The translations under genes and the position numbers were made by a program. A stretch of 23,878 nucleotides of DNA from a virus: IMG/VR virus record IMGVR_UViG_3300005253_000499, positions 1 to 23,878 of that record; one strand, given 5' to 3'. Shown piece after piece: positions 669 through 16,820 of this stretch. Each line of letters starts with the position of its first letter. Positions within the stretch are counted from its first letter, which is position 1. The notes beneath the pieces were generated by a model. The model was not told the DNA's origin. It saw only the letters and a program-made list of their open reading frames with translations, and did no database searches.

Positions 669-2783
669 TTACGCTGCCTTAATCAATCCTGCCCGCTCGA
701 AATAGAACAAGAAGGCGTGCACTCTTGGTCGGTTTGCGCTGTCATTATTTGTCAATTCTATACGATGAAAGGCCGCTACCGCATTTACGTAAACAGTAAA
801 CCAGGCTATCGAATCAGAGCCTTCGACCGGCTCACAGACTACCCGTACAGTTTGAAAAGCGCTTGTGTCGGTATTAAGGTAACTGAGAACGTCAAAAAAC
901 GTATTGCCAGAGCTATCGACGTCACACAAAAACTGAATCTTCTCCAATCTTGCTTCTCTGCCCTCGTTGGTGTAAGGGTTTGCCTGCACACCAATCGCTT
1001 CAAATTCAATGTTAGCACCAGCGTCCGCACCGCTGGTATTCAACTGATACACTATACCGTTATCGCTACCAAATAAGGTTGTTGGATAACCAGATTCGGC
1101 AGTACGGGCGTTCCACGGGTCGGTATAATCTTCCCATGCTATATCTTGCGCCCACGTCAAATCACTTTCTACCGCTGATTTGCCTATGGTATGAATAGAG
1201 TTTGCCAATTTATAGGTCGAAAAGCCAAGGTTCTCGTAATTAAATGTCAGTATGCTGTCAGGATAAGTATTGCCGTCAGCGTTTGCAGAGGCCCCGGCGG
1301 CGGCGTAGGCTTCTAAAATCAGCCTTTCCTCTTTCATTACTACGCCTTGAGTAAACAAACGTGAATTTTGTATCCAATCCAAAGTGAACTCAGGTATCTC
1401 GGAATCGGCGGCCCTTATCTCTCGGCTATCGGAGATATTTAATCTCGTAGTCCCTAAAGCAATCTGTCTCGCACCTTGAGTAACCAGAGAATTTTGGGCT
1501 ACACTGCCTTCGGTAGTCGATATAAATTCCCATTCAAAAGGTGTTGCTGAGTCACCCGTATAGGCCAATCGCCATACACTCTTTTCGCACCATACATAAA
1601 GGTCATTTAACAAAAAATCTGCCGAAACTATTACGTCCTGAGTAGGAATGTCCTTGAAATTCGCCGTAGGCCACGATTGCGGGTCTTTGATAGTACACCA
1701 TCGGGCGCGTTGTTTGAAATCTGTACCATCTTCGATTGTACTTAAGACAACGATTCTCTCCCTGTAAACGAATATCAATCTGCAACTGTTAAGATTGTTC
1801 TTATCGTTTGCGTCGCCTATGTCTACCGTTAGTCTTGAAAGATTTGTTCCGTTATAAACTTGAATTGGGTCATTGTTATTGGTGATGTAAGTTCTTGAGC
1901 TTCCGGCAAGGTTCCAACTTGTCGCCTGAAAATAGTTCGTATTATCACCTGTGAAAGCATCATCCGAATTAGCCCCATCTGATTGACCGGCGATATTAGA
2001 AGGAGTTCCGTTTTCTTGAAGTTCCTCGTTGTCCTGAAAAGGCCCACCTGTAACCCCGCCTTGCGTAAAGATTATCGTTCCACGGGCATCCAGTCCGGCC
2101 ACAGTGCCCGTATCGAGTATAAGAGCCGCCACAACGCCGGTAGCACTGCTGGAAGCACCCTTGATAGTATCGCTCACGGCAGGAGTGTAATTCTGGCCTG
2201 CTTTGCCGATATATCGTATCTTGTTCCGGGTCAGGTCTATGAATCGTTCCTGCGAAGCCGTGCCTGTAGCGTCGTTAGCTACCCAAGTGTCTGTAATATA
2301 AAAGTTATTAGCATCTATTCTATTTATTGTAAATGTGCCGTTATAACTTGTAGTACCGGATATAGTTACAACATCTTTGGGGTCAGTTGCCGACTGAAAG
2401 CCGTGAGCAACGGCCGTCACCTTTACCGTCCCTGCTACAGTAACGCTATAATCCGCAAAAGCAGTAATGGTTTTGCCCAGACTTGCGCCTGTAAGGTATT
2501 TGTTTATCCTCTCTTTGTCGGCCACTAAAAGGTTCTCTGTCGCATTGTCCTGATGATTCAATACGCCCGTTACGGCATTAGTCGCCAGAGACGCAACCTC
2601 CGTAGAAGTAACCACTTTGACAATCTGCCCGAACTTGGCATAACCCCTGCGTTTCTCTAATACACCGTCTTTGATGTGGCCATTCTTTAGCGTCTCGAAA
2701 GCGTCGGAAGGCGACAACCAGGGATGCCTTCGCAAACTTTTGCCGGTTTTCATATCAGCGATAAGATGAGCTTTGAAGGCCAT
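669..2783 (-). CDS. tail nozzle / P22 gp10-like tail protein
   Basis: 704 residues. The N-terminus (about 20-50, with DAFETLKNGHIKDGVLEKRRG) resembles the opening of phage stabilisation or nozzle proteins, which describe a list of DNA-independent beta-propeller blades. Residues about 125-180 (VTISGTTSYNGTFTI) look like the FCCH-type beta module found inserted in phage tail proteins. Residues 359-419 have the diagnostic pattern RxRW, W, DxP, LY, W, YTG, PF, E seen in gp10-like proteins, where it forms part of the propeller. The family forms the hexameric hub between portal-adaptor and needle or fibres in podoviruses. It starts at ATG 2783, overlapping the stop of the gene before it. Blade 359-419 is repeated in the Tat-signal protein at 12720-13217. 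Function by family resemblance only. Confidence 0.7.
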   Translation of the reverse strand: MAFKAHLIADMKTGKSLRRHPWLSPSDAFETLKNGHIKDGVLEKRRGYAKFGQIVKVVTSTEVASLATNAVTGVLNHQDNATENLLVADKERINKYLTGASLGKTITAFADYSVTVAGTVKVTAVAHGFQSATDPKDVVTISGTTSYNGTFTINRIDANNFYITDTWVANDATGTASQERFIDLTRNKIRYIGKAGQNYTPAVSDTIKGASSSATGVVAALILDTGTVAGLDARGTIIFTQGGVTGGPFQDNEELQENGTPSNIAGQSDGANSDDAFTGDNTNYFQATSWNLAGSSRTYITNNNDPIQVYNGTNLSRLTVDIGDANDKNNLNSCRLIFVYRERIVVLSTIEDGTDFKQRARWCTIKDPQSWPTANFKDIPTQDVIVSADFLLNDLYVWCEKSVWRLAYTGDSATPFEWEFISTTEGSVAQNSLVTQGARQIALGTTRLNISDSREIRAADSEIPEFTLDWIQNSRLFTQGVVMKEERLILEAYAAAGASANADGNTYPDSILTFNYENLGFSTYKLANSIHTIGKSAVESDLTWAQDIAWEDYTDPWNARTAESGYPTTLFGSDNGIVYQLNTSGADAGANIEFEAIGVQANPYTNEGREARLEKIQFLCDVDSSGNTFFDVLSYLNTDTSAFQTVRVVCEPVEGSDSIAWFTVYVNAVAAFHRIELTNNDSANRPRVHAFLFYFERAGLIKAA

Positions 2784-3823
2784 TATCTCACATAAGCCAT
2801 AAGTTTAACTGTTATTGTTATGGAATTATCTGTAAACATGTGTTCCATTATCCCTGAACTGTCAGTAGAACATACTACGTAAGCCATAGTCGCTTCACCT
2901 GAATCTCCACTTATCACGCTTGCCCCAAACCCTCTGGCAAGGTCATTAAGATGGTGCGAAGCTGTTCCGCTCCCTTGCCCATTCGGCCTACATGCAAAAG
3001 CTGCTGAACTTGTTGCCCAATTCACTTGGAGAAATACCATCGCTGTATTAGAACCGATTATTTGAGATAAATCCAAATCCTGAAACACTGTCGATGCGGT
3101 ATGAGTCGTGTTAAAAACTGTTGTTGCAGGAGCATTAAAAACATTATCAACATACGCTTTAGGAGCTATATCGGCATCTGTCGTAGGAGAAACACTTGAA
3201 GCTAACTGAGAACTTGCGCCCAACGTAGCAACGCCGGTTACTGTTAATGTTCCCGCCACAACTGTATCGCCCGTTGCCCCTGCTACCGTAAAAGTGTTCC
3301 CGCTAATCGTAATATCTGATGTTGTTGAAAGTAAAAGGTCATCGCCATCGCCGAGGGTTACATTGCCGTTAAATGTCGAAGGCGAAACCACTGTAAGACC
3401 GCCACTGCTGTACAAGTCGCCGTCTTTGGTAAATTGAAGTTGGGCCCCATCTTCAGATGTAAAGGCCATTTCCGGCTGTGAACCGCCATCTATAACCTGC
3501 AAATGTCCTTCGTTAGTAGATGAAGCACCCGCCGCTGATTCTTCCTCGAAAGTTATAACTTCATGTTTACCGGAATTAGTTCCACCTGTAGAAAATTCAT
3601 GATCTTGCGCAAGAGCCGTTTCAAGAGCAGCTTGATTAGCAAGCATTTCAGGCTGTGAATTTCTCAAAGACGTAGATGCGGCAGGTTTGTCTTTATCCCA
3701 AGCCTGAACAAACACGGCAGGCAGTATATTTCTTATCTGCTGTGAATATTGAAAGCCAACGAAACACAAAGACCAAACACAAAGCAGGGCCAAGTAAAGA
3801 CATATAGAGTTCTTATTTTTCAT
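2783..3823 (-). CDS. fibre-like virion protein with N-terminal membrane/signal segment
   Basis: 346 residues. An N-terminal lysine-rich start and a hydrophobic stretch at about 7-26 look like a signal peptide or anchor. After it comes WDKDKPAASTSLRNSQPE, then a region with DHEFSTGGTNSGKH, which is the usual N-terminal module of phage fibre and virion proteins (DKTKPA...NxQ...LE...DHxF...GKH). The middle (about 150-215) is Gly/Thr/Ser-rich beta repeat sequence of fibre-shaft type, followed by PKAYVDN and a compact beta C-terminal domain. Phage fibres normally lack a signal peptide, so the hydrophobic N-terminus is odd. The RBS AGGT lies just before ATG 3823, and the gene overlaps its upstream neighbour by 11 bases. 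Probably a tail fibre or surface-displayed fibre homologue. Confidence 0.65.
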   Translation of the reverse strand: MKNKNSICLYLALLCVWSLCFVGFQYSQQIRNILPAVFVQAWDKDKPAASTSLRNSQPEMLANQAALETALAQDHEFSTGGTNSGKHEVITFEEESAAGASSTNEGHLQVIDGGSQPEMAFTSEDGAQLQFTKDGDLYSSGGLTVVSPSTFNGNVTLGDGDDLLLSTTSDITISGNTFTVAGATGDTVVAGTLTVTGVATLGASSQLASSVSPTTDADIAPKAYVDNVFNAPATTVFNTTHTASTVFQDLDLSQIIGSNTAMVFLQVNWATSSAAFACRPNGQGSGTASHHLNDLARGFGASVISGDSGEATMAYVVCSTDSSGIMEHMFTDNSITITVKLMAYVR

Positions 3824-4081: not shown

Positions 4082-4951
4082 CTAATATCCTTTACCGAGT
4101 AATTTTACATCGTGCGAAGCTTCACTTGCCAGAACCACCAGAAAATCCGCCCCTTTAATATCAAGTTCCGCTTCAGCGTTTGTATCATCTGCCGGGCTTG
4201 TTATTGTCCACGTCGAACCCCATGATTTTGCTGTTAGAACAACCGCGTCAGCCATTTCAAATCCTACTAAATCAGATGCGGCATGAGTAAGGACGTTAGC
4301 GCTGCCTCTGGCAATGCGGTCTGAAGCAACAGTTTCGGAGTTTGTAAACGTGCCGGATTTTGACCTGTACTGTATTGTGCCAGCAGCATCCCCGGCGGCG
4401 AAAGAGCCAGAAGTGAAGGATACAGTAGTCAAGACAACCGCTGTTTCAGCGGAAGTATTACCTGTGAGAGTATCGCCCGGCAGTGGAACATAAGGCCCCC
4501 CGGAAGTATATGCTATCTGATAAAACAGTGAAACCTGAGTGCCGGTAGTAAATACCAATTGCCCGGCATAAGATAGTTCGCAATCAGAATCACTCTCCAG
4601 CGAACTTCTTGTTCCCAAATAAATCTGATAGGTCTGTGCATCATTGTTTGTTATGCCAACACTTCTAAAGCGTATCCCGTTCCAGCTTGCAGGTATAACG
4701 AAAGTCGATATTTCTTCGGCACCGCTCGCCCCCGTTACTATAGCCGCTTCCAATAATAATTTTGTTCTTTCACCAACAATTAACGCCGGCGGCTCGGCCC
4801 CCGCGCTGGTAGTCTCGTCGATAACAACCCATCCGTCCTGTATAGTATGCAAGACATTACCAGTCACTTCCTGCTTTAGGGTTTCTGTTCGTAACGCGGC
4901 ACTAACAAAGATAAGAGCCAATAACACTGATAATATGCTAAACTTTTTCAT
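4082..4951 (-). CDS. secreted beta-rich structural-like protein
   Basis: 289 residues. It begins MKKFSILSVLLALIFVSAAL, a textbook Sec signal peptide with a possible cleavage after SAA or SAALR. The rest is Thr/Ser/Gly/Ala-rich, beta-type and nearly Cys-free, like phage tail and capsid accessory proteins (for example LPGDTLTGNTSAE and the AAGTIQYRSKSGTFTNSE segment seen in phage baseplate or fibre-like modules). A strong RBS (AGGAG) precedes ATG 4951. It lies between two other signal-bearing genes. It may be an exported virion component or a cell-surface protein. No specific family is recognised. Confidence 0.65.
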   Translation of the reverse strand: MKKFSILSVLLALIFVSAALRTETLKQEVTGNVLHTIQDGWVVIDETTSAGAEPPALIVGERTKLLLEAAIVTGASGAEEISTFVIPASWNGIRFRSVGITNNDAQTYQIYLGTRSSLESDSDCELSYAGQLVFTTGTQVSLFYQIAYTSGGPYVPLPGDTLTGNTSAETAVVLTTVSFTSGSFAAGDAAGTIQYRSKSGTFTNSETVASDRIARGSANVLTHAASDLVGFEMADAVVLTAKSWGSTWTITSPADDTNAEAELDIKGADFLVVLASEASHDVKLLGKGY

Positions 4952-4962
4952 AATTTAATCTC

Positions 4963-5331
4963 CTAAGGAGGGTTAGCATCTGATGACATAATCACAAAAT
5001 TACTGCCGTCATAACAAAGAGGCACTATCTGAGAGGCGTCTATATGGTTATCGGCGGGGTCGTTACCTGAAACAGTTTTCAGCGACTGTGCGCCTAAGCT
5101 ATTTATATTAAGCGTGCAAGCCCCGGTATTGTCTGTTACAGGATTGAGCAAAACAAACAATCCCGCATTGTACCCGCCAATTCCGTCTATCTGCGCGAGA
5201 TAAGTGTCGTTAGACGCCGTATCGACCGCATAGTACGCTAACGCCGTCACAGGGTTATATCGTCGACTTATTGAACCCATAGAAAATATAACGAATACGG
5301 TAATCAATATTGCTAATAATATCTTTTTCAT
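4963..5331 (-). CDS. signal-peptide protein with tail-fibre domain
   Basis: 122 residues. The N-terminus MKKILLAILITVFVIFSMGS is a signal peptide or anchor. The remainder carries the compact motif NTGACTLNINSLGAQSLKT, followed by IDASQIVPLCYDGSNFVI. That combination (GAxTLNxNxLGAxxIK... I.AxQIV...YDGxNF) is a very common domain of phage tail fibres and tail collar proteins. Here it is almost the whole mature protein, so this looks like a single exported fibre domain. The RBS AAGGAG lies 10 bases upstream of ATG 5331. The function is unknown; an envelope-displayed fibre fragment or a fibre chaperone or attachment module are both possible. Confidence 0.7.
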   Translation of the reverse strand: MKKILLAILITVFVIFSMGSISRRYNPVTALAYYAVDTASNDTYLAQIDGIGGYNAGLFVLLNPVTDNTGACTLNINSLGAQSLKTVSGNDPADNHIDASQIVPLCYDGSNFVIMSSDANPP

Positions 5332-5343
5332 TTTAGAAACTCC

Positions 5344-6432
5344 TTAAAAAGAACGCTGGACAACTTGGCCAAGCAAGCGCTTGATTTTGTCAGGTCTTAT
5401 CCTACTCATCATATTTTCTGCGTAAGCGGCCACGCTGGTTATAGCGTCAGCAGGGCCATTTCTTACCATATACTCCAAAGCGGATTTGGACGCTATTGCA
5501 GGCCCCCATTTCACATCGTCAGGTACAGCGTTATCATCAGCAAAAGCCGTAGGTCTGTCAGCAATAGATAAAGCCTCTAATTCGTATATATCGTTCGGCT
5601 TTGGCTGGACGTAGATATTCTGGCCGAACAATAACACGGCTATAGGTTCGCCCCTATTCTCAAATTTGCCATCCGTGAACGTATCGGTCACATTGGAAGC
5701 GTTCAGGGCTGTTGTAGCTGGCGTAAACGCCCCGTCCGACTTGGTTACGGTTACATAGCCCATATACGCTGAATCCGAATCCGACGCAACCAAGGCGTCA
5801 AGGGCTATCCTCGGCGTTGCGTAGCCTGTACCGTTGGCGGTAGCGGCTGCTACGGTAATATCGCCATCAACATCTATCTTTAGCGACCATGCACCGTACA
5901 GGCCCTGTGGTATTGCATCACCCGTCAGAGTTACTTCACTTGACGATTTGGAGTATGATTTATTCTTAATCTCGTAGCTGAAATCGCTGTGTTTGACCTT
6001 TGTTGCATCACTTGAACCTATTACTAAAGTAGGGTCTGTGATGAACTGCTCATCCTTAAATTGAAAATGATGAAAAGATGTTCTTTGCCCGGTAAAATGC
6101 GTAAAATGGCGATGATGATGGTCGTGCCCGCCAAAGAACCGTTCCCTGTCTCTATATAAAACAATCTGCCTGCCGTTTATGGTTACAGGATCATCGAGGC
6201 GGTCTACGTTCTGGTCAAGAGCATAAACACCATCGTCTGTGGCTGATAACGCCTGAATAAAAAATACGTTAAACTCATCTACCTTGGCATCGTGAGAGAA
6301 ACGATTAACGTAATAATCGTTAATCTCTTCATTGACGATTGTATCGGAGGTCTGGCTGGTAGACTTCCGGCCGGTCAGTTCGCGCCATAGAGTAACCATT
6401 TCAGACAATTTCCATGTCTTGGTATCAGCCAT
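5344..6432 (-). CDS. neck/head-tail adaptor-like structural protein, His-rich
   Basis: 362 residues, no signal peptide. The N-terminus is helical (WKLSEMVTLWRELTGR...). The C-terminal third contains IYVQPKPNDIYELEALSIADRP and then PDDVKWGPAIASKSALEYM, a pattern common in phage tail-adaptor or neck proteins of P22- and N4-like podoviruses. Residues 103-122 hold eight histidines in 20 positions, probably a metal-binding or pH-sensitive loop. The start ATG 6432 overlaps the stop of the O-antigen ligase-like gene (TAATG). The role as adaptor between portal and nozzle is inferred from gene order and from the resemblance. Confidence 0.6.
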   Translation of the reverse strand: MADTKTWKLSEMVTLWRELTGRKSTSQTSDTIVNEEINDYYVNRFSHDAKVDEFNVFFIQALSATDDGVYALDQNVDRLDDPVTINGRQIVLYRDRERFFGGHDHHHRHFTHFTGQRTSFHHFQFKDEQFITDPTLVIGSSDATKVKHSDFSYEIKNKSYSKSSSEVTLTGDAIPQGLYGAWSLKIDVDGDITVAAATANGTGYATPRIALDALVASDSDSAYMGYVTVTKSDGAFTPATTALNASNVTDTFTDGKFENRGEPIAVLLFGQNIYVQPKPNDIYELEALSIADRPTAFADDNAVPDDVKWGPAIASKSALEYMVRNGPADAITSVAAYAENMMSRIRPDKIKRLLGQVVQRSF

Positions 6433-7958
6433 TATCGTACCTTTGCTAAATTCAATTTTGCACGTTTAAAACTCGGACATATTCGCAAAACTTCGGCAAA
6501 ATACCCTTTTGCTGCCGTTAGGTCCCCTTCGATTTGTTTTGCAAGTCCCATACCATTTAAAACATATACATTGTGTGGATTGTATTTATGAGCTATCTTA
6601 AACTCATTAGCTGCTAATCGATATTGTTTCGATTCAAAGTAAGAAGTTCCCCGCCACCAATGCCAGGGGATACCTGTATGGCTGACTGTGGAAAATGGAG
6701 AATATGCTTTAAATAATTCCATTGCTTGTATGCCGGTTTTTGCATACCTTGTTTTCTTGTCCCAATAAGAAGCTTTGAGCCTGAAACTAAAAACAACTAA
6801 AATAAATATCATAACAGTTAGTAATATTTTCGGCTGTTGTATCAATCTCATTGGACAGGCAATTGCTATAAAATTAGCCATCATTAATGAGGAAAATGGT
6901 CTCTCGTGCGGAGCAGAAAAGCAAGCTATTGCTATATACCCAAACACGAGCATCACTAACCATATTGCTTTATCCCGCCAAGCATAATACAGAGAAGTTA
7001 CAAATATCCCAATATAACAAACAAGCCCCAATGCGCCAATTTCAGAACAGATCCATACAAAATCATTATGTGGAAATCTAAACGTCTTTTCGATAAATGC
7101 TCCTGGAAAATTAATGCCGGCTGCATATTTAGGAAACAATATCCACCAATTACCCGAACCGACACCCAGAGGGTAATCGACCATCATGTTTTTGGTAAAA
7201 TTCCATTGTTCCAATCTTTCGTTTAGAGAAATTGTACACAACAACCCCTCGTTTGCAAAAACAAACGGTGTTAAAAAAATACATATCACCGTTACTATTA
7301 ACCAACGCTCTTTCGAATACATTGCAAGAATAAACGAAGACAAAACAATCGCTAATATTGCCGACCTTGATTTTAATAAGAAAACTTGTATGACCATCAA
7401 TGCTAAAATAACAATAGCTGGCTTTTTCCAAAACTTATTAACTATCGCATAATAACAAAACGGAATTACAAAGAACTGGGCATGTGCCCATGTATTTCTC
7501 TGTCTCATTAAACCTCGACACGCTTCGAAGTTGCCTTGTAAATAATAATCATACCAAAAATAGATTACAAAAACTGTGCCAAGCATTATCATCGTCTTGG
7601 CAAGTAATTCTTTATCTATTTTTACAACTGATATATACGTTATCATTAACACTATTCTTGATACCGAATATAGCCACTCTGCTTTGTTTATTACGCCCAC
7701 CCCTGACAATAAAGAAAGAGCTAAAAAGCTTAATAAAAACCAATGGATAAAACCTATTCGTATTTCCTTGGAACAACAAACAAGGATTATCGTCATAATG
7801 CACCAAACGATATGACGAGGCATTAGTGCTCTGTCGAACAATGATGTTACTAAAACTGTGCCACAGAGAAAAATGCCTATCGGCAAAATAAGCTTATCAA
7901 TCTTGTTATGAACCATTCGAAAAGACCACTTATCGTTGCTAAAAGAACCATGAGACAA
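6432..7958 (-). CDS. O-antigen polymerase/ligase-like membrane enzyme with C-terminal TPRs
   Basis: 508 residues. Residues about 20-410 contain ten or more hydrophobic helices with Wzy_C / O-antigen ligase family features: KSRSAILAIVLSSF, then NERLEQWNFTKNMMVDYPLG and VGSGNW, then FPHNDFVWICSEIGALGLVC, the large periplasmic loop and the following helix of the family. Residues about 430-505 form tandem TPR-like repeats (YFESKQYRLAANEFKIAHKY, then NGMGLAKQIEGDLTAAKGYF). The family transfers or polymerises undecaprenyl-linked O-antigen in the inner membrane. The RBS AAAGGA precedes ATG 7958. By eye the gene is clearly more A+T-rich than its neighbours, suggesting recent capture from a bacterium. 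It sits in the virion gene block and is coupled to the adaptor gene by TAATG. It probably alters host surface polysaccharide, which is inference. Confidence 0.8.
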   Translation of the reverse strand: MSHGSFSNDKWSFRMVHNKIDKLILPIGIFLCGTVLVTSLFDRALMPRHIVWCIMTIILVCCSKEIRIGFIHWFLLSFLALSLLSGVGVINKAEWLYSVSRIVLMITYISVVKIDKELLAKTMIMLGTVFVIYFWYDYYLQGNFEACRGLMRQRNTWAHAQFFVIPFCYYAIVNKFWKKPAIVILALMVIQVFLLKSRSAILAIVLSSFILAMYSKERWLIVTVICIFLTPFVFANEGLLCTISLNERLEQWNFTKNMMVDYPLGVGSGNWWILFPKYAAGINFPGAFIEKTFRFPHNDFVWICSEIGALGLVCYIGIFVTSLYYAWRDKAIWLVMLVFGYIAIACFSAPHERPFSSLMMANFIAIACPMRLIQQPKILLTVMIFILVVFSFRLKASYWDKKTRYAKTGIQAMELFKAYSPFSTVSHTGIPWHWWRGTSYFESKQYRLAANEFKIAHKYNPHNVYVLNGMGLAKQIEGDLTAAKGYFAEVLRICPSFKRAKLNLAKVR

Positions 7959-8089: not shown

Positions 8090-9202
8090 TTAGCCATCTT
8101 CATGCGGCGATACACTTGTAGATGAAGGAAATCCCTGTGTCGGTTGTGTACCGAACTCAGGACTTCCACTAAATTCATCCCCATCTGTATCAGAAACAAA
8201 GTTGTTCATAAACACCATGTCGTCAGCCACACGCATTAATAAGGCCGTTGCCACATCAGATACAATCTCGTTATTAGAGATATAACCAGATGTACCGTCT
8301 GACATATCAATAACAGCAACAGCATTTATCTCGCCATCGCCACCCATTGTACCTTGAAACAACAGGTTTCGTCTGATAATTACATCATCAGCAGAATCGC
8401 CAGCGACATTAAACCTACCGACAATACAAGCACGAGAATAATCGCCAATAATATCGTTGCCGGAAGCCTCAAAACCAGATACAGCAGTTATATATATGGC
8501 CTGAACCGCGCCAGCGGCACCAGCCCTAAACGTACATCCTTTCACCAGCGCATTGTCTGCACCACCTGCTACGCTGATAGCAGCATTAAACTCGTCAGTC
8601 CCAAGAGCATCGCCTTCATCACGGAAGTCATTATTAATAACCTCGCAATTTTCTCCTGTAATAACTAACCCTGAAACAACGGCAGTAACCGAAGCCCTAT
8701 GACGTAGATTGATTATTGTTACGTCATCAGCACTTACGATAAACGTACTTCCTGCCGCTGTATAATCAAAATTCGGGGCTTGTTTGCCTCTACCAAGACC
8801 AATGATAGTCACACCGTCAATATCAACTGTTACGCCAGCAGCACCAATATCTTCATCAGAGTTTTGTATCACGTAGATTCTGTCGCCGCGATTGGCAGTT
8901 ACATCGCTTCCGCTATCAAACGCATCGTCAAGGGTAGGCCATGCAGTAGCAGGGGAAGTACCAGTCGAAGTTGCTGAGCCACCGGCAGCACTATCAACAT
9001 AGAAAACCTTACCTGTGCCTATATTAAACAATCCCGCATTGACGATGTCTTGATTGAGCGTGTCAATCCAACCCCTCAAGAGTTGGTCGAAATTACCGGC
9101 GTTTACATTACTCTGGTTTATCTGGGTTATATCGACCGTACCAAACGCCGTGCCGTACAAAAGCGTTACTATCACTATCAGCAATAATGCTTTCTTCCAC
9201 AT
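8090..9202 (-). CDS. exported right-handed beta-helix (tailspike-like) protein
   Basis: 370 residues. MWKKALLLIVIVTLLYGTAFG is a Sec signal peptide. Residues about 65-110 contain GKVFYVDSAAGGS, TGTSPATAWPTLDDAF and RGDRIYVI, the typical entry of pectate-lyase-like beta-helix proteins. About 120-345 is a run of short Asn/Val/Ile/Gly turns (VTIIGLGRG, VTIINLRHR, CEVINNDFRD, ALVKGCTFRA, FEASGNDIIG, VIIRRNLLFQ, YISNNEIVS, MVFMNNFVS), about one coil per 22-28 residues. Such folds occur in phage tailspikes and polysaccharide lyases. No catalytic triad can be assigned by eye. The RBS GGAGG is encoded in the last codons of the upstream small gene, which overlaps by TAATG. A signal peptide on a tailspike-like protein is unusual. 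Confidence 0.75.
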   Translation of the reverse strand: MWKKALLLIVIVTLLYGTAFGTVDITQINQSNVNAGNFDQLLRGWIDTLNQDIVNAGLFNIGTGKVFYVDSAAGGSATSTGTSPATAWPTLDDAFDSGSDVTANRGDRIYVIQNSDEDIGAAGVTVDIDGVTIIGLGRGKQAPNFDYTAAGSTFIVSADDVTIINLRHRASVTAVVSGLVITGENCEVINNDFRDEGDALGTDEFNAAISVAGGADNALVKGCTFRAGAAGAVQAIYITAVSGFEASGNDIIGDYSRACIVGRFNVAGDSADDVIIRRNLLFQGTMGGDGEINAVAVIDMSDGTSGYISNNEIVSDVATALLMRVADDMVFMNNFVSDTDGDEFSGSPEFGTQPTQGFPSSTSVSPHEDG

Positions 9203-10787: not shown

Positions 10788-11825
10788 TTATACGGTGGTT
10801 ACTAAAACATGCCCGAAGTTGTCATTCAGTATCTGGGCCGCGAAATTCTGCAACCAACCCAACGTAGTAAATCTCTGCAAAGGCGAACCAACTTTGTCTT
10901 TCGGGGTAAAGATAAGTGGCGCATCCGCCGAATTACCTTTAATCTTGACTGTGCCATAAAACTCTTGCCCGAAGATAAGGTTCTGATAGCCTGTTGTTGC
11001 GTTGGTTCGAGTTGCATTAGTCGTCAAGAGCCATCGAATATCATCTGTGGCTCCGAACTCGTCCTGCATAGCACGGTCCTGAGCATAGGCGCTCACATGC
11101 CTAAAACCACTTACATTCGAGAGGCGCGTTCTTTGACCTACGTGACAAATACCAATAAACGATGCCCGGATAGGGGACGTAGAGACCTTAACACTTGCGC
11201 TTATCTGAGGTTCAATCATTCGCGTATTCTGAACAAGTAGATTGGTTACAATTGTGTCAAGGTCTATCTTGCCAATGAATGTTGCCGTCCCCACGCCGTT
11301 TGATGCCGTAGTCTGCGATGCCGTACCGCTGGCAACGTCTCGCGTGAGCGTATCGATGGTCAATCTCATGTTGTCCAGTAATATGTCGGACATCTGGGTT
11401 TGGTCATCGGTAATACCAGTGAAAGTCATCCACGAACTTGTTACGATCCATGCGCCATACTCTTTCATTTTGACTTGTATATCGGTTTTCGATAAAAGAA
11501 TTGGTGAAGGGTCGACGCCTTCGATAAGCGGTACTGTCTGCGCAGCCGGGTTGCCCCATCTTCGCCACTTGTTAGTATCGCCGGCGTGCATCGGCATTGA
11601 ATCCTTTTTGCCGAACCTTACATATATAAAGACATCAATCACCCGAAGCAATACATTGCTTTGATAGAAGATATTTATCGGGTGATTTATCCTTGTGGTT
11701 GTGTGCATTTGACTATTAATAGGAAAACGTGCCATCATGGCATTAAATCCAAGAGGAAATATCGCCGCTAACTCTTTATGACGATTCAATCTTTCCTCAA
11801 CGGAGAAATACATTAAATCTTTCAT
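10788..11825 (-). CDS. major capsid protein, N4-gp56 type
   Basis: 345 residues of the HK97-fold N4-gp56 family by resemblance. Visible features are WRRWGNPAAQTVPLIEGVDP (about 87-106), then LSKTDIQVKMKEYGAWIVTS (the E-loop/P-domain entry), a long helix around LDNMRLTIDTLTRDVASGT, and a C-terminal PLQRFTTLGWLQNFAAQILN typical of the family's end. It assembles the icosahedral shell. The RBS AGAAAGGA precedes ATG 11825. It is placed correctly between the scaffold-like gene and the head accessory genes. The strong purine-rich leader suits a highly expressed protein. Confidence 0.88.
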   Translation of the reverse strand: MKDLMYFSVEERLNRHKELAAIFPLGFNAMMARFPINSQMHTTTRINHPINIFYQSNVLLRVIDVFIYVRFGKKDSMPMHAGDTNKWRRWGNPAAQTVPLIEGVDPSPILLSKTDIQVKMKEYGAWIVTSSWMTFTGITDDQTQMSDILLDNMRLTIDTLTRDVASGTASQTTASNGVGTATFIGKIDLDTIVTNLLVQNTRMIEPQISASVKVSTSPIRASFIGICHVGQRTRLSNVSGFRHVSAYAQDRAMQDEFGATDDIRWLLTTNATRTNATTGYQNLIFGQEFYGTVKIKGNSADAPLIFTPKDKVGSPLQRFTTLGWLQNFAAQILNDNFGHVLVTTV

Positions 11826-11840
11826 TACATATCCTTTCTT

Positions 11841-12629
11841 TTATACCCGTTCGCCCTCAGCCATCTTCTGCCGAATCTCCTTAATCTGCTCTCTCGACAT
11901 CATCTGCTGATTATTAGGGTCGCCAGCACCGCCGCCACCTGCGGCTGAGCCGCCAAGGGGTTCGGTTTTATTGTCAATCCCCTGTCTTTTTAAATGTTCC
12001 TGATTGGCGGCAGCGTTCTTTTCAAGCTCTGCAAGTTTTCTTTCGTCCATAACTACCTTGTAAGCTGACTCCGCATTAGAATAAGCAGCGTTGGCTAAGT
12101 GAGGTTTTTCTGTTATTATTTTCAATAGTTCAGGAGATAGCTGGAAATTATTACCCATTTGTCTTCCCACAACTTCCCCATAGTCGGCGTGTTCCTGGAC
12201 AAACCGTTGATTTGATACTGCCTGTTGCTGTTGTAGATTGGCAGCATTTTGTATCTCGATAGTACGTTGGATTATCGTGCCAACCTCTGATTCAGAAGGA
12301 TACTCCTGATTCTGCAAACCCAAGTCAGCCCTTGCCTGGTCGTAAATGGTCTGAGTTTGCGTTTGAACAGGAGCGGCCGCTTGCTGTTGATTTGCAGTCA
12401 TTATCTGCATCTGCTCTCGCAAAACACGAGCATCTTCTTCGGCAACGGCAGCCTTTTTGTTGGCCTTTTCAAATTCAACGTACTTAACGGTTTTCTTGTC
12501 CTTGTCATCGCCGTCTGCAAGTTTTTCACCTTGACCGGGGGCATTTAGGTCTGCGCCTTGACCGGAGGCAGTTAGGTCTGGGTCAGCGACCGACTGACTC
12601 GTGTTTAGGTCTTCTTGTGTATCTGGCAT
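11841..12629 (-). CDS. scaffolding-like protein
   Basis: 262 residues from ATG 12629, preceded by TGGAG. The protein is acidic and low-complexity at the N-terminus, with a short repeat (LTASGQGADLNAPGQGEKLA), then coiled-coil with many Gln/Ala (EFEKANKKAAVAEEDARVLR, NLQQQQAVSNQRF), a conserved-looking central helix pair, a Gly-rich linker (GGSAAGGGGAGDPNNQQ) and a basic C-terminal helix (SREQIKEIRQKMAEGERV). This architecture and the position right before the capsid gene fit a scaffold that binds capsid by its basic C-terminal helix. It has no protease motif. Family not proven. Confidence 0.75.
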   Translation of the reverse strand: MPDTQEDLNTSQSVADPDLTASGQGADLNAPGQGEKLADGDDKDKKTVKYVEFEKANKKAAVAEEDARVLREQMQIMTANQQQAAAPVQTQTQTIYDQARADLGLQNQEYPSESEVGTIIQRTIEIQNAANLQQQQAVSNQRFVQEHADYGEVVGRQMGNNFQLSPELLKIITEKPHLANAAYSNAESAYKVVMDERKLAELEKNAAANQEHLKRQGIDNKTEPLGGSAAGGGGAGDPNNQQMMSREQIKEIRQKMAEGERV

Positions 12630-12642
12630 AATAAACTCCAAT

Positions 12643-12686
12643 AAAAAAATCCTTCGCCCACAGCTACTCACTGTGAATGAAGGATT
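12643..12686 (-). terminator. rho-independent terminator / attenuator before scaffold gene
   Basis: On the minus strand AATCCTTC pairs with GAAGGATT and an inner CACAG pairs with CTGTG, followed immediately by seven Ts. It is the clearest intrinsic terminator in the window. It sits only 13 bases before the start of the scaffold gene, so scaffold and capsid must be expressed by read-through, RNA processing or a promoter not visible by eye. Confidence 0.85.
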
Positions 12687-12719: not shown

Positions 12720-13217
12720 TTATGCTTTTTTGTTATTCACTTTCAATTTATAAGTAAAATCATCATTTAGAATTACTGCTCTACAGCCGAATCTCTTATT
12801 GAATCGTTCTATTTCCCCTTTGTATTCAAAAACAAAAGGTTGTTGATGTTCGCCTGTATAACATATTTCCCACAATTCGCTGAAACCTAACCAATACAGC
12901 TTGCCTTCGCTATTTATTAGACCCTCGCAAGCATCAAAAGAAGGCAAATCTACATAGTCTGGTTGGCTCCACTTGCTAAATTCTCCGACAACAGACCATC
13001 GGATTCTTTTCTCGTGGGCTATAAAATGCCTGTCCTTGAAATGGCTATGATGCCAAGGCTTTTCGAGAATCTTTGTACTCTTCCAATTCGGGTCATTAGA
13101 AAGCGTTTCACTGATTATCTTATCAACATCCGCCTTAGATTTCTTACCCGGCACACAAGCCACATATACACCTGCGACAAAGCCTGTAACTATCTTGAAA
13201 AAGCTACGCCTGTTCAT
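12720..13217 (-). CDS. Tat-signal protein carrying a tail-nozzle propeller segment
   Basis: 165 residues. The N-terminus MNRRSFFKIVTGFVAGVYVA is a twin-arginine signal (NRRSFFK) with a hydrophobic core, and Cys21 may be a lipid-attachment site. Residues 71-131 align without a gap to residues 359-419 of the tail protein at 669-2783. Sixteen positions match, including R71, R73, W74, W83, D90, P92, L107, Y108, W116, Y120-T121-G122, P127-F128 and E131. This segment is characteristic of gp10-like nozzle proteins. The RBS AGAGGA lies 3 bases before ATG 13217, and the start overlaps the stop of the upstream small gene (ATGA). A terminator follows. It is probably exported folded to the periplasm or envelope; its role there is unknown. 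Confidence 0.75.
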   Translation of the reverse strand: MNRRSFFKIVTGFVAGVYVACVPGKKSKADVDKIISETLSNDPNWKSTKILEKPWHHSHFKDRHFIAHEKRIRWSVVGEFSKWSQPDYVDLPSFDACEGLINSEGKLYWLGFSELWEICYTGEHQQPFVFEYKGEIERFNKRFGCRAVILNDDFTYKLKVNNKKA

Positions 13218-13309
13218 AGTCCTCTTAACCTAAAAAAGTCAACTCTCCAATACCATTTAAGACATTCCCATATTACAACTCCACAAATCATATAAAATGC
13301 TTCAAACAT
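13214..13309 (-). CDS. 31-residue single-TM peptide
   Basis: Starts at ATG 13309 behind a very strong RBS (AGGAGG, 6 bases) and ends ATGA, overlapping the Tat-signal protein gene. The peptide is a hydrophobic helix with four Trp or Cys positions (MICGVVIWECLKWYW) and a basic end (RLRGL). The strong RBS and coupling argue it is real. It may help express or localise the Tat-signal protein; no family is known. Confidence 0.65.
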   Translation of the reverse strand: MFEAFYMICGVVIWECLKWYWRVDFFRLRGL

Positions 13310-13318
13310 TCCGGCCTC

Positions 13319-13498
13319 CTATCTGTTAGGTAACATCTTTTTCCCTTTCGGCAAAGTAATTTCTTCGCCGTTTTCCAATTTGAGTGCTTGTTTGATAGCA
13401 TGTTTTATTTGTTGCTTAACAATCCAAGTGCCATTACCTTCGTAATTAACACTTGTTTGCCCTTCTGCTATAGCCTCTATTTGTTCGTCAGTCAACAT
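13319..13498 (-). CDS. 59-residue hypothetical protein
   Basis: ATG 13498 is preceded by AGGAAAGAAG; the stop TAG overlaps the strong RBS of the next gene, so the two are coupled. It is a soluble protein with an acidic N-terminus (LTDEQIEAIAEGQ), a helical middle (IVKQQIKHAIKQALKLE) and a short basic end. No domain is recognised. Confidence 0.65.
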   Translation of the reverse strand: MLTDEQIEAIAEGQTSVNYEGNGTWIVKQQIKHAIKQALKLENGEEITLPKGKKMLPNR

Positions 13499-13506
13499 CT
13501 TCTTTC

Positions 13507-13590
13507 CTATCTGTTGGGGTCCAATATCTTCGACATTTCAACGCCGTAGTTCATATTAACTGTTTCGCGGCCTGGTTTCAAGCTATTCAT
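13507..13590 (-). CDS. 27-residue hypothetical peptide
   Basis: ATG 13590 lies within the last codons of the preceding gene, with AAAGG four bases ahead. It ends DPNR with TAG, 8 bases before the next ATG. Overlap and spacing fit the tightly packed operon, but the peptide is very short and could be chance. Confidence 0.4.
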   Translation of the reverse strand: MNSLKPGRETVNMNYGVEMSKILDPNR

Positions 13591-13804
13591 AACCTTTGTT
13601 TTTGTGTTTTTCTCCGGAAATTCTTGTGCCTAAATTCTTTATCAAAGTACCATCGTATTCAACCGCAACACATTGCTCTATGTTTGAGAGAGAATAATCC
13701 CTTGCCTTTGCCATATTAAACCTTATTGTACCAAAAAAGTTTGGGAAAGCAACTTGTAATTTTTTGCCTACGCTACCTAAAGTTTTATTTTGTTCGGTTG
13801 TCAT
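13583..13804 (-). CDS. 73-residue hypothetical protein
   Basis: Starts at ATG 13804, overlapping the stop of the preceding gene (ATGA). The sequence is soluble, with an aromatic beta-like centre (VAFPNFFGTIRFNMAKARDY) and Cys in NIEQCVAVEYDG. It resembles small phage accessory proteins in composition, but no family can be named. Confidence 0.65.
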   Translation of the reverse strand: MTTEQNKTLGSVGKKLQVAFPNFFGTIRFNMAKARDYSLSNIEQCVAVEYDGTLIKNLGTRISGEKHKNKGYE

Positions 13805-14834: not shown

Positions 14835-16820
14835 CTATCCTCCAGTATTTTGTACCTGCTTTTGTTTGTCCTGTGCTATTTGCATCCTGACTTCTTCTTT
14901 AACTAAACTCACTATCGGGTCAGCTTGCAGCTTCTGTGCCTGTGCCAAAGTCTTCATTCTATTTAATGGTATTTCCGACCGCTTTTCACGTGCGTCGGCC
15001 ATGTTCTCTTGTGCCTGAGATATTTGGACGGCGGTCAAGCCCTGAGTTAGTTTGTCAGCGGACTGCTGAGATTGTGCCTGGGCCTGTTGCTGCTGTTGTC
15101 TCGATTGGATAGCCCTTTGGATGGCTTGTAAGGTCGGGGTCTTAAACTGCATCGGAGAGGCTTTAACCAGCATATCGGCTGTAATGATACCTCTAAACTC
15201 GTCCGGCAGTTCCAAAAGAAGACTCTTGAGTTCCTGATAATACATATTCTGCTGGCTGTCAGTCTCTAAGCCTTCTGTTGGCGCACAATCAAACCTCGAT
15301 AGATCATCATCATAGAATCCTTGTACAGGCTCCTCGTTGAGTATCTTGCGTATACGCTGTGGGTCGTAATTAACTTGTACTATCTGGACCTGTGTGCGGC
15401 CGAAATATCGCTTGGAACCTTTAAGATTCTGGAACATCCATCCCTGCGCGGTCAGGGCCTTGCCTGTCCGATAAACATGAAGAACCCCGGATATTTCCTT
15501 GTTCTTTTCGTCAGTGCCAAGTATCTCCTGATTAAGACCACCTGTTTCGGCCTCGTCCTTATCTATAATCTGTAACATGGTAAAAACCGATTGGTCAACT
15601 CCGGAAAAAGGTATCTGGTCGAAAATCTGCCTTAACGGCATTTCGTCCGGGGCATTTTCATTAAGTTGAAGATTAATTCCCTGACCACTCAAATAGGTAT
15701 CTTCGGGGTTCATTATGTACTTACTGCGAGACATCCTTACACCATGCATCCCAGCTTCGATTATGTCCATTGCCTGATTTATCTTGCGATTATACATACG
15801 CTGGGGGTCACGAAGGCCGCGAGTAAATGACTGTAACTTTAGTTCGGTTCTCGGTTGTTCCGGGCACCACATGCCATGGAACCACGTATAATTGTAATCA
15901 CGTATTCTCATGGGGTTGTCGCCTTCCCATACAAGCTCGTCATCCACGAATATCTTTAATTCAACCTTGTCCTTAATGTCCCTGAACTTTACAAGAACAG
16001 GAGCGCCGTCAGGTGTTCTAAAATTCTGGAGGAGTTGGTCTGCCAGGTTCTTATCACCCTTTGCCTCGTCCCTGAGAAAGTCCTTGAAAGTCTTCTGATT
16101 ACCCGTAAGACGATTCTGGACAACAGAAACCTCTTCGGTGGTTCTGTGCCACCATTGCTCGAATAGCCTCTTGCCTGCCTTGTTCATCATAGTCGGCGTG
16201 CCCTGGAACGGCCATCGGCTCGTATGAGTTAATGGGTTAATTGCTTCAATCTCGTCTGCGCGGGTAGGAACCAGCATCTTGGCCTTGTCAGTTGAAATCC
16301 ATTGCCCGGTAAGAATATCGCCGCAATCAGAAAGATCGCTTTTAGTAAGTCCGTGGTCTAACAAGAACTGGTTCCACCCCAATCTTCCGTATTGTATCGT
16401 ACCTAATCTGTCTCGCCATGACTCTATTAGATTAGAACCTTCTACCAAAGTTCCCCACTTAAAAGCCTGGCTCATCATATCGTAACCGTTATGCCGGGCC
16501 ATTAAGCTCATTACAACGCCCGTGTGCTGATTGCAGGCCTGGTCTTCTTTTTCGTCAAAATTGCCTTGAGGCCCTATTTTTAGTATATGGCGATTGCGAA
16601 TTTCGTAGCCGTGTAAAAGATTGACTTGCCGGCCTATCTTGTCGATTGTATGAAGAAGTCTGTTTTGGCGGTCGGCCCTCTGCATTTCCTCATAGGTGTG
16701 CTGGGCTTTCAGATAATAGTCGAGGTCGAGGCAAGCCTGCTCGTTATACGGACGCCATGCAGTTTCGTTTATCTCGTAAACGTCGTGGAACTCTGATATT
16801 GTAGTTTCGTCGTTAGGCAC
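14835..16820 (-). CDS. portal protein, P22 gp1 type
   Basis: 661 residues. N-terminal helices (YYLKAQHTYEEMQRADRQNR, then IDKIGRQVNLLHGYEIRNR) and the core stem/wing region with RGLRDPQRMYNRKINQAMDI and EETGG-like KDEAETGGLNQEILG are characteristic of P22-like portals. The C-terminal 100 residues are Gln-rich helices (SRQQQQQAQAQSQQSADKL), the barrel/crown segment. It forms the dodecameric DNA channel that docks terminase and the tail adaptor. GTG 16820 follows the terminase stop with no gap, with GGAG about 10 bases ahead, so coupling is expected. Length is slightly below P22 gp1 (725). Confidence 0.9.
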   Translation of the reverse strand: MPNDETTISEFHDVYEINETAWRPYNEQACLDLDYYLKAQHTYEEMQRADRQNRLLHTIDKIGRQVNLLHGYEIRNRHILKIGPQGNFDEKEDQACNQHTGVVMSLMARHNGYDMMSQAFKWGTLVEGSNLIESWRDRLGTIQYGRLGWNQFLLDHGLTKSDLSDCGDILTGQWISTDKAKMLVPTRADEIEAINPLTHTSRWPFQGTPTMMNKAGKRLFEQWWHRTTEEVSVVQNRLTGNQKTFKDFLRDEAKGDKNLADQLLQNFRTPDGAPVLVKFRDIKDKVELKIFVDDELVWEGDNPMRIRDYNYTWFHGMWCPEQPRTELKLQSFTRGLRDPQRMYNRKINQAMDIIEAGMHGVRMSRSKYIMNPEDTYLSGQGINLQLNENAPDEMPLRQIFDQIPFSGVDQSVFTMLQIIDKDEAETGGLNQEILGTDEKNKEISGVLHVYRTGKALTAQGWMFQNLKGSKRYFGRTQVQIVQVNYDPQRIRKILNEEPVQGFYDDDLSRFDCAPTEGLETDSQQNMYYQELKSLLLELPDEFRGIITADMLVKASPMQFKTPTLQAIQRAIQSRQQQQQAQAQSQQSADKLTQGLTAVQISQAQENMADAREKRSEIPLNRMKTLAQAQKLQADPIVSLVKEEVRMQIAQDKQKQVQNTGG

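Follow-up and report, generated by a model that had tools for sequence, protein, structure and literature searches.

Introduction

Phage proteins that exclude competing phages are known to act at the cell envelope. SieA of phage P22 operates at the inner membrane, where it acts on ejection proteins (PMC10883804), and Ltp of phage TP-J34 is a lipoprotein that excludes by binding the tape measure protein of the incoming phage (PMC3952083). Here, we analysed a window of 23,878 nucleotides of DNA from an uncultured phage (positions 1 to 23,878 of IMG/VR virus record IMGVR_UViG_3300005253_000499) for a gene whose 165-residue product, P0001, combines a putative twin-arginine translocation (Tat) leader with a segment homologous to a tail nozzle (Table 1). 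Like Ltp, P0001 is small, phage-encoded, presumably accessory and predicted to reside outside the cytoplasmic membrane. Unlike Ltp, which is expressed from a lysogeny module and targets the tape measure protein, it has a Tat-type leader rather than that of a lipoprotein, a nozzle-derived body and a gene in a late cluster. The inner membrane at which SieA acts is a place that an exported P0001 could reach, whereas no nozzle-derived domain is described for SieA. Both systems were likened to P0001 by description, not by sequence.

Two further groups of proteins invite comparison by sequence. P0001 residues 69-134 are homologous to tail nozzles (8zkk, 8zkm; T7 gp12 as structural type) around the RxRW...W...DxP...YTG...PF motif conserved in that family, but P0001 is without platform or tip domains, has a Tat-like leader and is encoded outside the tail module. 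With the Tat-signal proteins of NCBIfam TIGR01409 it has in common an RRxF motif and a hydrophobic stretch; it differs in scoring below the model and in having a viral body. We consider it about an even chance (roughly 0.5) that P0001 is an exported accessory protein encoded by a cassette ('moron').

Results and discussion

The preliminary description of this locus reported an ungapped match of P0001 residues 71-131 to residues 359-419 of a 704-residue tail protein, and its count of 16 identities (over 61 positions) proved exact. No other window protein compared gave more than 10 identities to the P0001 segment without gaps, and none of 2000 shuffled versions of the segment reached 16 against the 704-residue protein (maximum 14). 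Pairwise BLASTP related the two proteins with an E value of 7e-8, and this pair was by far the strongest (E 5.5e-7) in an all-against-all BLASTP of the 23 predicted window proteins. A profile of seven nozzles from the window and its relatives scored P0001 at 21.6 bits; the highest score that 2200 shuffled sequences reached against 14 profiles was 8.9 bits. Profile-profile comparison, which the preliminary description had proposed as a check, agreed: hhalign related P0001 to the nozzles of its own phage group (E 6e-6) and, across residues 69-157, to A5, an alignment of nozzles of unrelated phages (E 5.4e-6).

The 704-residue protein itself had no convincing family in Pfam or PHROG, and its identification as a nozzle is based on a two-step profile chain. 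A5 has four members and was built from weak tblastn matches to proteins with 'phage stabilization' or virion annotations; hhalign matched it to the nozzle group of the window at 97.7% (E 1.5e-12), and A5 in turn matched the solved nozzles 8zkk and 8zkm and chain 9nwi_Y in the PDB with E values of about 1e-21 or better. P22 gp10, used as a single sequence, gave no match to the nozzle profiles. Apart from P0001, the product of 4082-4951 (minus strand) has a segment of ~46 residues in common with nozzle residues 195-239 (pairwise BLASTP E 0.001), and the nozzle profile also matches other open reading frames (ORFs) in two relatives.

The P0001 segment retains the conserved Trp, Tyr-Thr-Gly and Pro-Phe positions of the nozzle family in an open frame at about 20% identity. 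Among nozzles of its own phage group the corresponding segments are 55-94% identical, as compared to 15-23% between P0001 and these nozzles and 18-24% between P0001 and nozzles of unrelated phages. In a rough tree built on about 100 columns, the P0001 segment likewise fell outside the nozzles of its own group. On these figures P0001 resembles the nozzle of its own phage no more than it does those of unrelated phages and does not represent a recent copy; the nozzle homology claimed earlier holds, but 'paralogue' of the phage's own tail protein is too strong. The segment could be a copy that is old or has changed fast, or it could have come from another phage. As the T7 nozzle is built around a seven-bladed propeller (PMC6702177), the segment would cover at most about two blades if the same architecture applies.

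The N-terminus of P0001 resembles that of Tat substrates, in which an S/T-R-R-x-F-L-K-like motif near the N-terminus precedes a hydrophobic stretch. P0001 has NRRSFFK followed by such a stretch (mean of 2.15 for the most hydrophobic 11-mer). What had been described as a textbook Tat signal is thus present as a motif, but P0001 matched neither of the curated Tat models TIGR01409 and PF10518. In contrast, syntenic proteins of relatives L003 (19.1 bits) and L021 (18.3 bits) exceed the NCBIfam TIGR01409 cut-off of 16.7 bits. Cys21, previously considered as a lipid anchor, lies in a poor lipobox, as YVAC at residues 18-21 has Tyr at -3 and departs from the standard [LVI][ASTVI][GAS]C. The P0001 start codon overlaps (ATGA) the stop codon of a 31-codon hydrophobic ORF that is preceded by an AGGAGG ribosome site, which suggests that P0001 is translated, probably by translational coupling to this ORF. 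The GC content of the P0001 gene is 0.39, versus 0.45-0.48 in the head and tail genes compared, and promoter-like sites occur at chance level.

The gene occupies a variable slot between the portal and scaffold genes and not the tail module; the true nozzle is encoded at 669-2783. Relatives (designated L003, L004 and so on) were collected by portal and major capsid protein (MCP) profiles, i.e., conserved virion proteins, so that counts of slot types sample this lineage and not phages generally. The portal profile had no match in cellular genomes. Of the relatives whose slot is complete, L003 is the nearest (its portal is 89% identical); its DNA similarity to the window ends near 13712 and returns at 12729, inside the last codons of both genes, and the bodies of the slot proteins differ. 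The content of the slot varies among close relatives in the manner of an accessory cassette. Tat-leader ORFs are present in the slots of L003, L020, L021, L060, and L067, and ORFs assigned by eye from their N-termini as lipoprotein-type in those of L004, L005/L008, L006/L011, L014/L015, L026, L030, L063, and L064. Neither type was seen in the slots of L013, L017, L018, L024/L031, L028, L062, and L065. A match by eye of the L014 lipoprotein to the window protein at 370-666 was unsupported.

Virion-protein fragments behind Tat leaders seem to recur in this lineage, with a nozzle piece in the window, MCP pieces in L011 (strong) and possibly in L067 (weak). The 90-residue Tat-leader protein of L011, encoded upstream of the L011 terS gene and outside the portal-scaffold slot, has two collinear MCP matches, to residues 43-73 and to the C-terminus (profile E 1.8e-7; phmmer 1.5e-8). 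For the 82-residue slot protein of L067, a score of 9.1 bits (E 0.04) against MCP segment 43-73, just over every shuffled score, is no more than suggestive. The motif [IVL]LND[DN][FY] was confined, among the ORFs searched, to MCP C-termini, the L011 protein, and P0001. The C-terminus of P0001 may thus be capsid-like; alternatively, residues 147-160 may form the end of the nozzle segment, as hhalign to A5 aligns them. Other bodies are of different kinds. Those of the L003 and L060 Tat proteins have another module in common (E 1e-12), and the Tat protein of L040, a different phage, resembles that of L011 in the leader only (69% identity, residues 1-26), the body being unrelated. Given the MCP pieces, the L003/L060 module, and the leader-only match, the Tat proteins look modular, with one type of leader and exchangeable bodies, some of them apparently virion-derived.

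Small ORFs in L006 (6964-7230) and L013 (2048-2275) end in the capsid motif KWRR[WY]G; apart from these ORFs, it was found here in MCPs and in two Tat-leader proteins and nowhere else. Three near-tandem Tat-leader ORFs (4553-4801, 5001-5249, and 5569-6111) lie upstream of the terminase large subunit gene in L074, another phage. The body of the third looked terminase-like by eye, but matched no terminase family and only phrog_35340, of unknown function (E 0.005).

The Tat-like leader, the nozzle segment, and a variable slot that often encodes lipoproteins or Tat-leader proteins suit an exported accessory protein. According to this proposal, the P0001 cassette would be swapped in and out between the portal and scaffold genes. 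Host Tat machinery would export P0001 to the periplasm, as suggested by its leader and by the Tat-leader and lipoprotein content of the relatives' slots, and the leader would be cleaved or serve as an anchor. The nozzle-derived module would then provide a reused binding surface at the cell envelope. Its most likely effect would be superinfection exclusion: the module would interfere with an incoming phage at its short-tail nozzle, its needle, or its ejection conduit. This last step has less support than export, drawn as it is from the site of action of SieA and Ltp, and we put it forward tentatively, as less likely than not.

Several observations weigh against this proposal, in addition to the failure of P0001 to match a curated Tat model. 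Its nozzle-homologous part, at 65-90 residues versus about 470-700 in a full nozzle, would not make up a whole propeller. SieA and Ltp are prophage-expressed, but the P0001 gene forms part of a late morphogenesis cluster, and an integrase was found in only one of nine relatives, several of which are fragments. The MCP segments of the sister Tat-leader proteins are unsuited to a tail-specific role. P0001 is a singleton, without homologues in the viral_contigs, genome_contigs, phages, and plasmids collections, and selection on it is consequently not measurable. AlphaFold models of the nozzle and P0001, proposed earlier as a check, were obtained but unusable (mean predicted local distance difference test score of 39.8 with a 6-row alignment and 44.8 with 7 rows, respectively). 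Among the other searches made, direct comparison of P0001 to the PDB gave no credible match, the defence-family search gave no match, and the RNA and tRNA searches found none. A candidate adaptor segment picked out by eye in P0001, HHSHFKDRHFI, was unsupported (-3.2 bits).

A serious alternative to an exported accessory protein is that the slot turns over rapidly and joins an export leader to captured scraps of genes (nozzle, capsid, others), so that the nozzle piece of P0001 would be accidental and have no nozzle-related, possibly not any, function. The L011 and L040 proteins with their common leader and unrelated bodies, the different bodies in the window and L003, the MCP pieces in L011 and L067, and the KWRR[WY]G pieces that further small ORFs share are all consistent with such a process. 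Decaying scraps, however, should lose the Trp, Tyr-Thr-Gly, and Pro-Phe positions that P0001 has kept at its low identity and in an open frame, and the use of the same MCP segment twice (L011, L067) also argues against chance capture. We regard this explanation as possible rather than probable.

The preliminary description had P0001 as a mimic of the phage's own tail, in which a duplicated piece of its nozzle, once in the periplasm, could attach to the host receptor or to an incoming tail of the same phage type and so block superinfection. The nozzle homology is real, and both the export-type leader and the moron slot accord with such a mimic. Yet the segment is no closer to the phage's own nozzle than to unrelated ones and would comprise only about two blades. 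Moreover, capsid is not expected in the periplasm during infection, and a tail-specific decoy leaves the recurrent capsid pieces behind Tat leaders unexplained. A mimic of this kind is quite unlikely. Least probable is a cytoplasmic morphogenetic or virion protein with a merely Tat-like N-terminus and a nozzle-like module that works in head-tail assembly, which would fit the late morphogenesis cluster beside scaffold and portal, the absence of a Tat model match, and a possible use of nozzle and MCP segments as assembly interfaces, but is at odds with syntenic proteins that either exceed the Tat model cut-off or resemble lipoproteins and with the absence of the gene from many relatives, by which it is not essential for assembly.

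If P0001 and its sister proteins are exported accessory proteins, this phage lineage appears to send virion-protein fragments into the host envelope, possibly for a protective purpose. Among the papers searched, none described fragments of phage virion proteins that are exported by Tat. A wider class of phage Tat-exported proteins with virion-segment bodies (a nozzle piece; capsid residues 43-73 plus C-terminus), swappable slots, and action at the envelope, e.g., against the entry of competing phages, seems rather unlikely at present. Should the pattern be functional, it would point to a new means by which phages affect the envelope or their rivals, with recycled virion parts; should it not be, the slot would be a live example of small genes arising from an export leader and gene scraps.

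Table 1 Features of the P0001 locus and related genes in the window
Feature	Position	Strand	Basis or remark
P0001, 165-residue Tat-leader protein with nozzle segment	12720..13217	-	ORF and translation
P0001 N-terminal Tat-like leader, residues 1-29, MNRRSFFKIVTGFVAGVYVACVPGKKSKA	13131..13217	-	Sequence; fits twin-arginine consensus
P0001 twin-arginine motif NRRSFFK, residues 2-8	13194..13214	-	
P0001 nozzle-homologous segment, residues 69-134	12816..13013	-	To residue 157 by hhalign versus nozzles of other phages
P0001 C-terminal AVILNDDFTYKLKV, residues 147-160	12738..12779	-	Resembles MCP C-terminus ILNDNFGHVL and L011 Tat protein
31-residue hydrophobic ORF, MFEAFYMICGVVIWECLKWYWRVDFFRLRGL, 5' of P0001	13214..13309	-	AGGAGG upstream; ATGA overlap with P0001 start
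Replaceable cassette	12730..13711	-	Without DNA similarity to L003 here
Portal protein (P22-type), upstream slot boundary	14835..16820	-	Pfam PF16510, 123 bits
Probable scaffolding protein, downstream slot boundary	11841..12671	-	Placed between the slot and the MCP gene; conserved among relatives; no family match
Major capsid protein (MCP)	10788..11825	-	PHROG 1357; its 43-73 profile region recurs in relatives' Tat-leader proteins
Tail-nozzle (head-closure) protein, 704 residues	669..2783	-	hhalign to A5; A5 to PDB nozzles
Nozzle residues 357-425, counterpart of P0001 segment	1509..1715	-	

Further observations concern other genes in the window (all on the minus strand). Within the tail gene cluster, 6432-7958 encodes a membrane protein of the O-antigen ligase/polymerase type (Wzy_C, 50 bits) that has a TPR tail. 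The gene may serve in surface modification, and homologues occupy the corresponding position in L003 and L024. Strongly hydrophobic, signal-like N-termini are present in the tail-region proteins encoded at 8090-9202, 4082-4951, and 4963-5331. The fibre-like protein encoded at 2783-3823 and its counterparts in L003, L009, and L020 carry a Sec-like signal peptide, while those in L023 and L024 start directly at MAF(D/N)KD, which suggests that virion-type proteins can gain or lose export signals.
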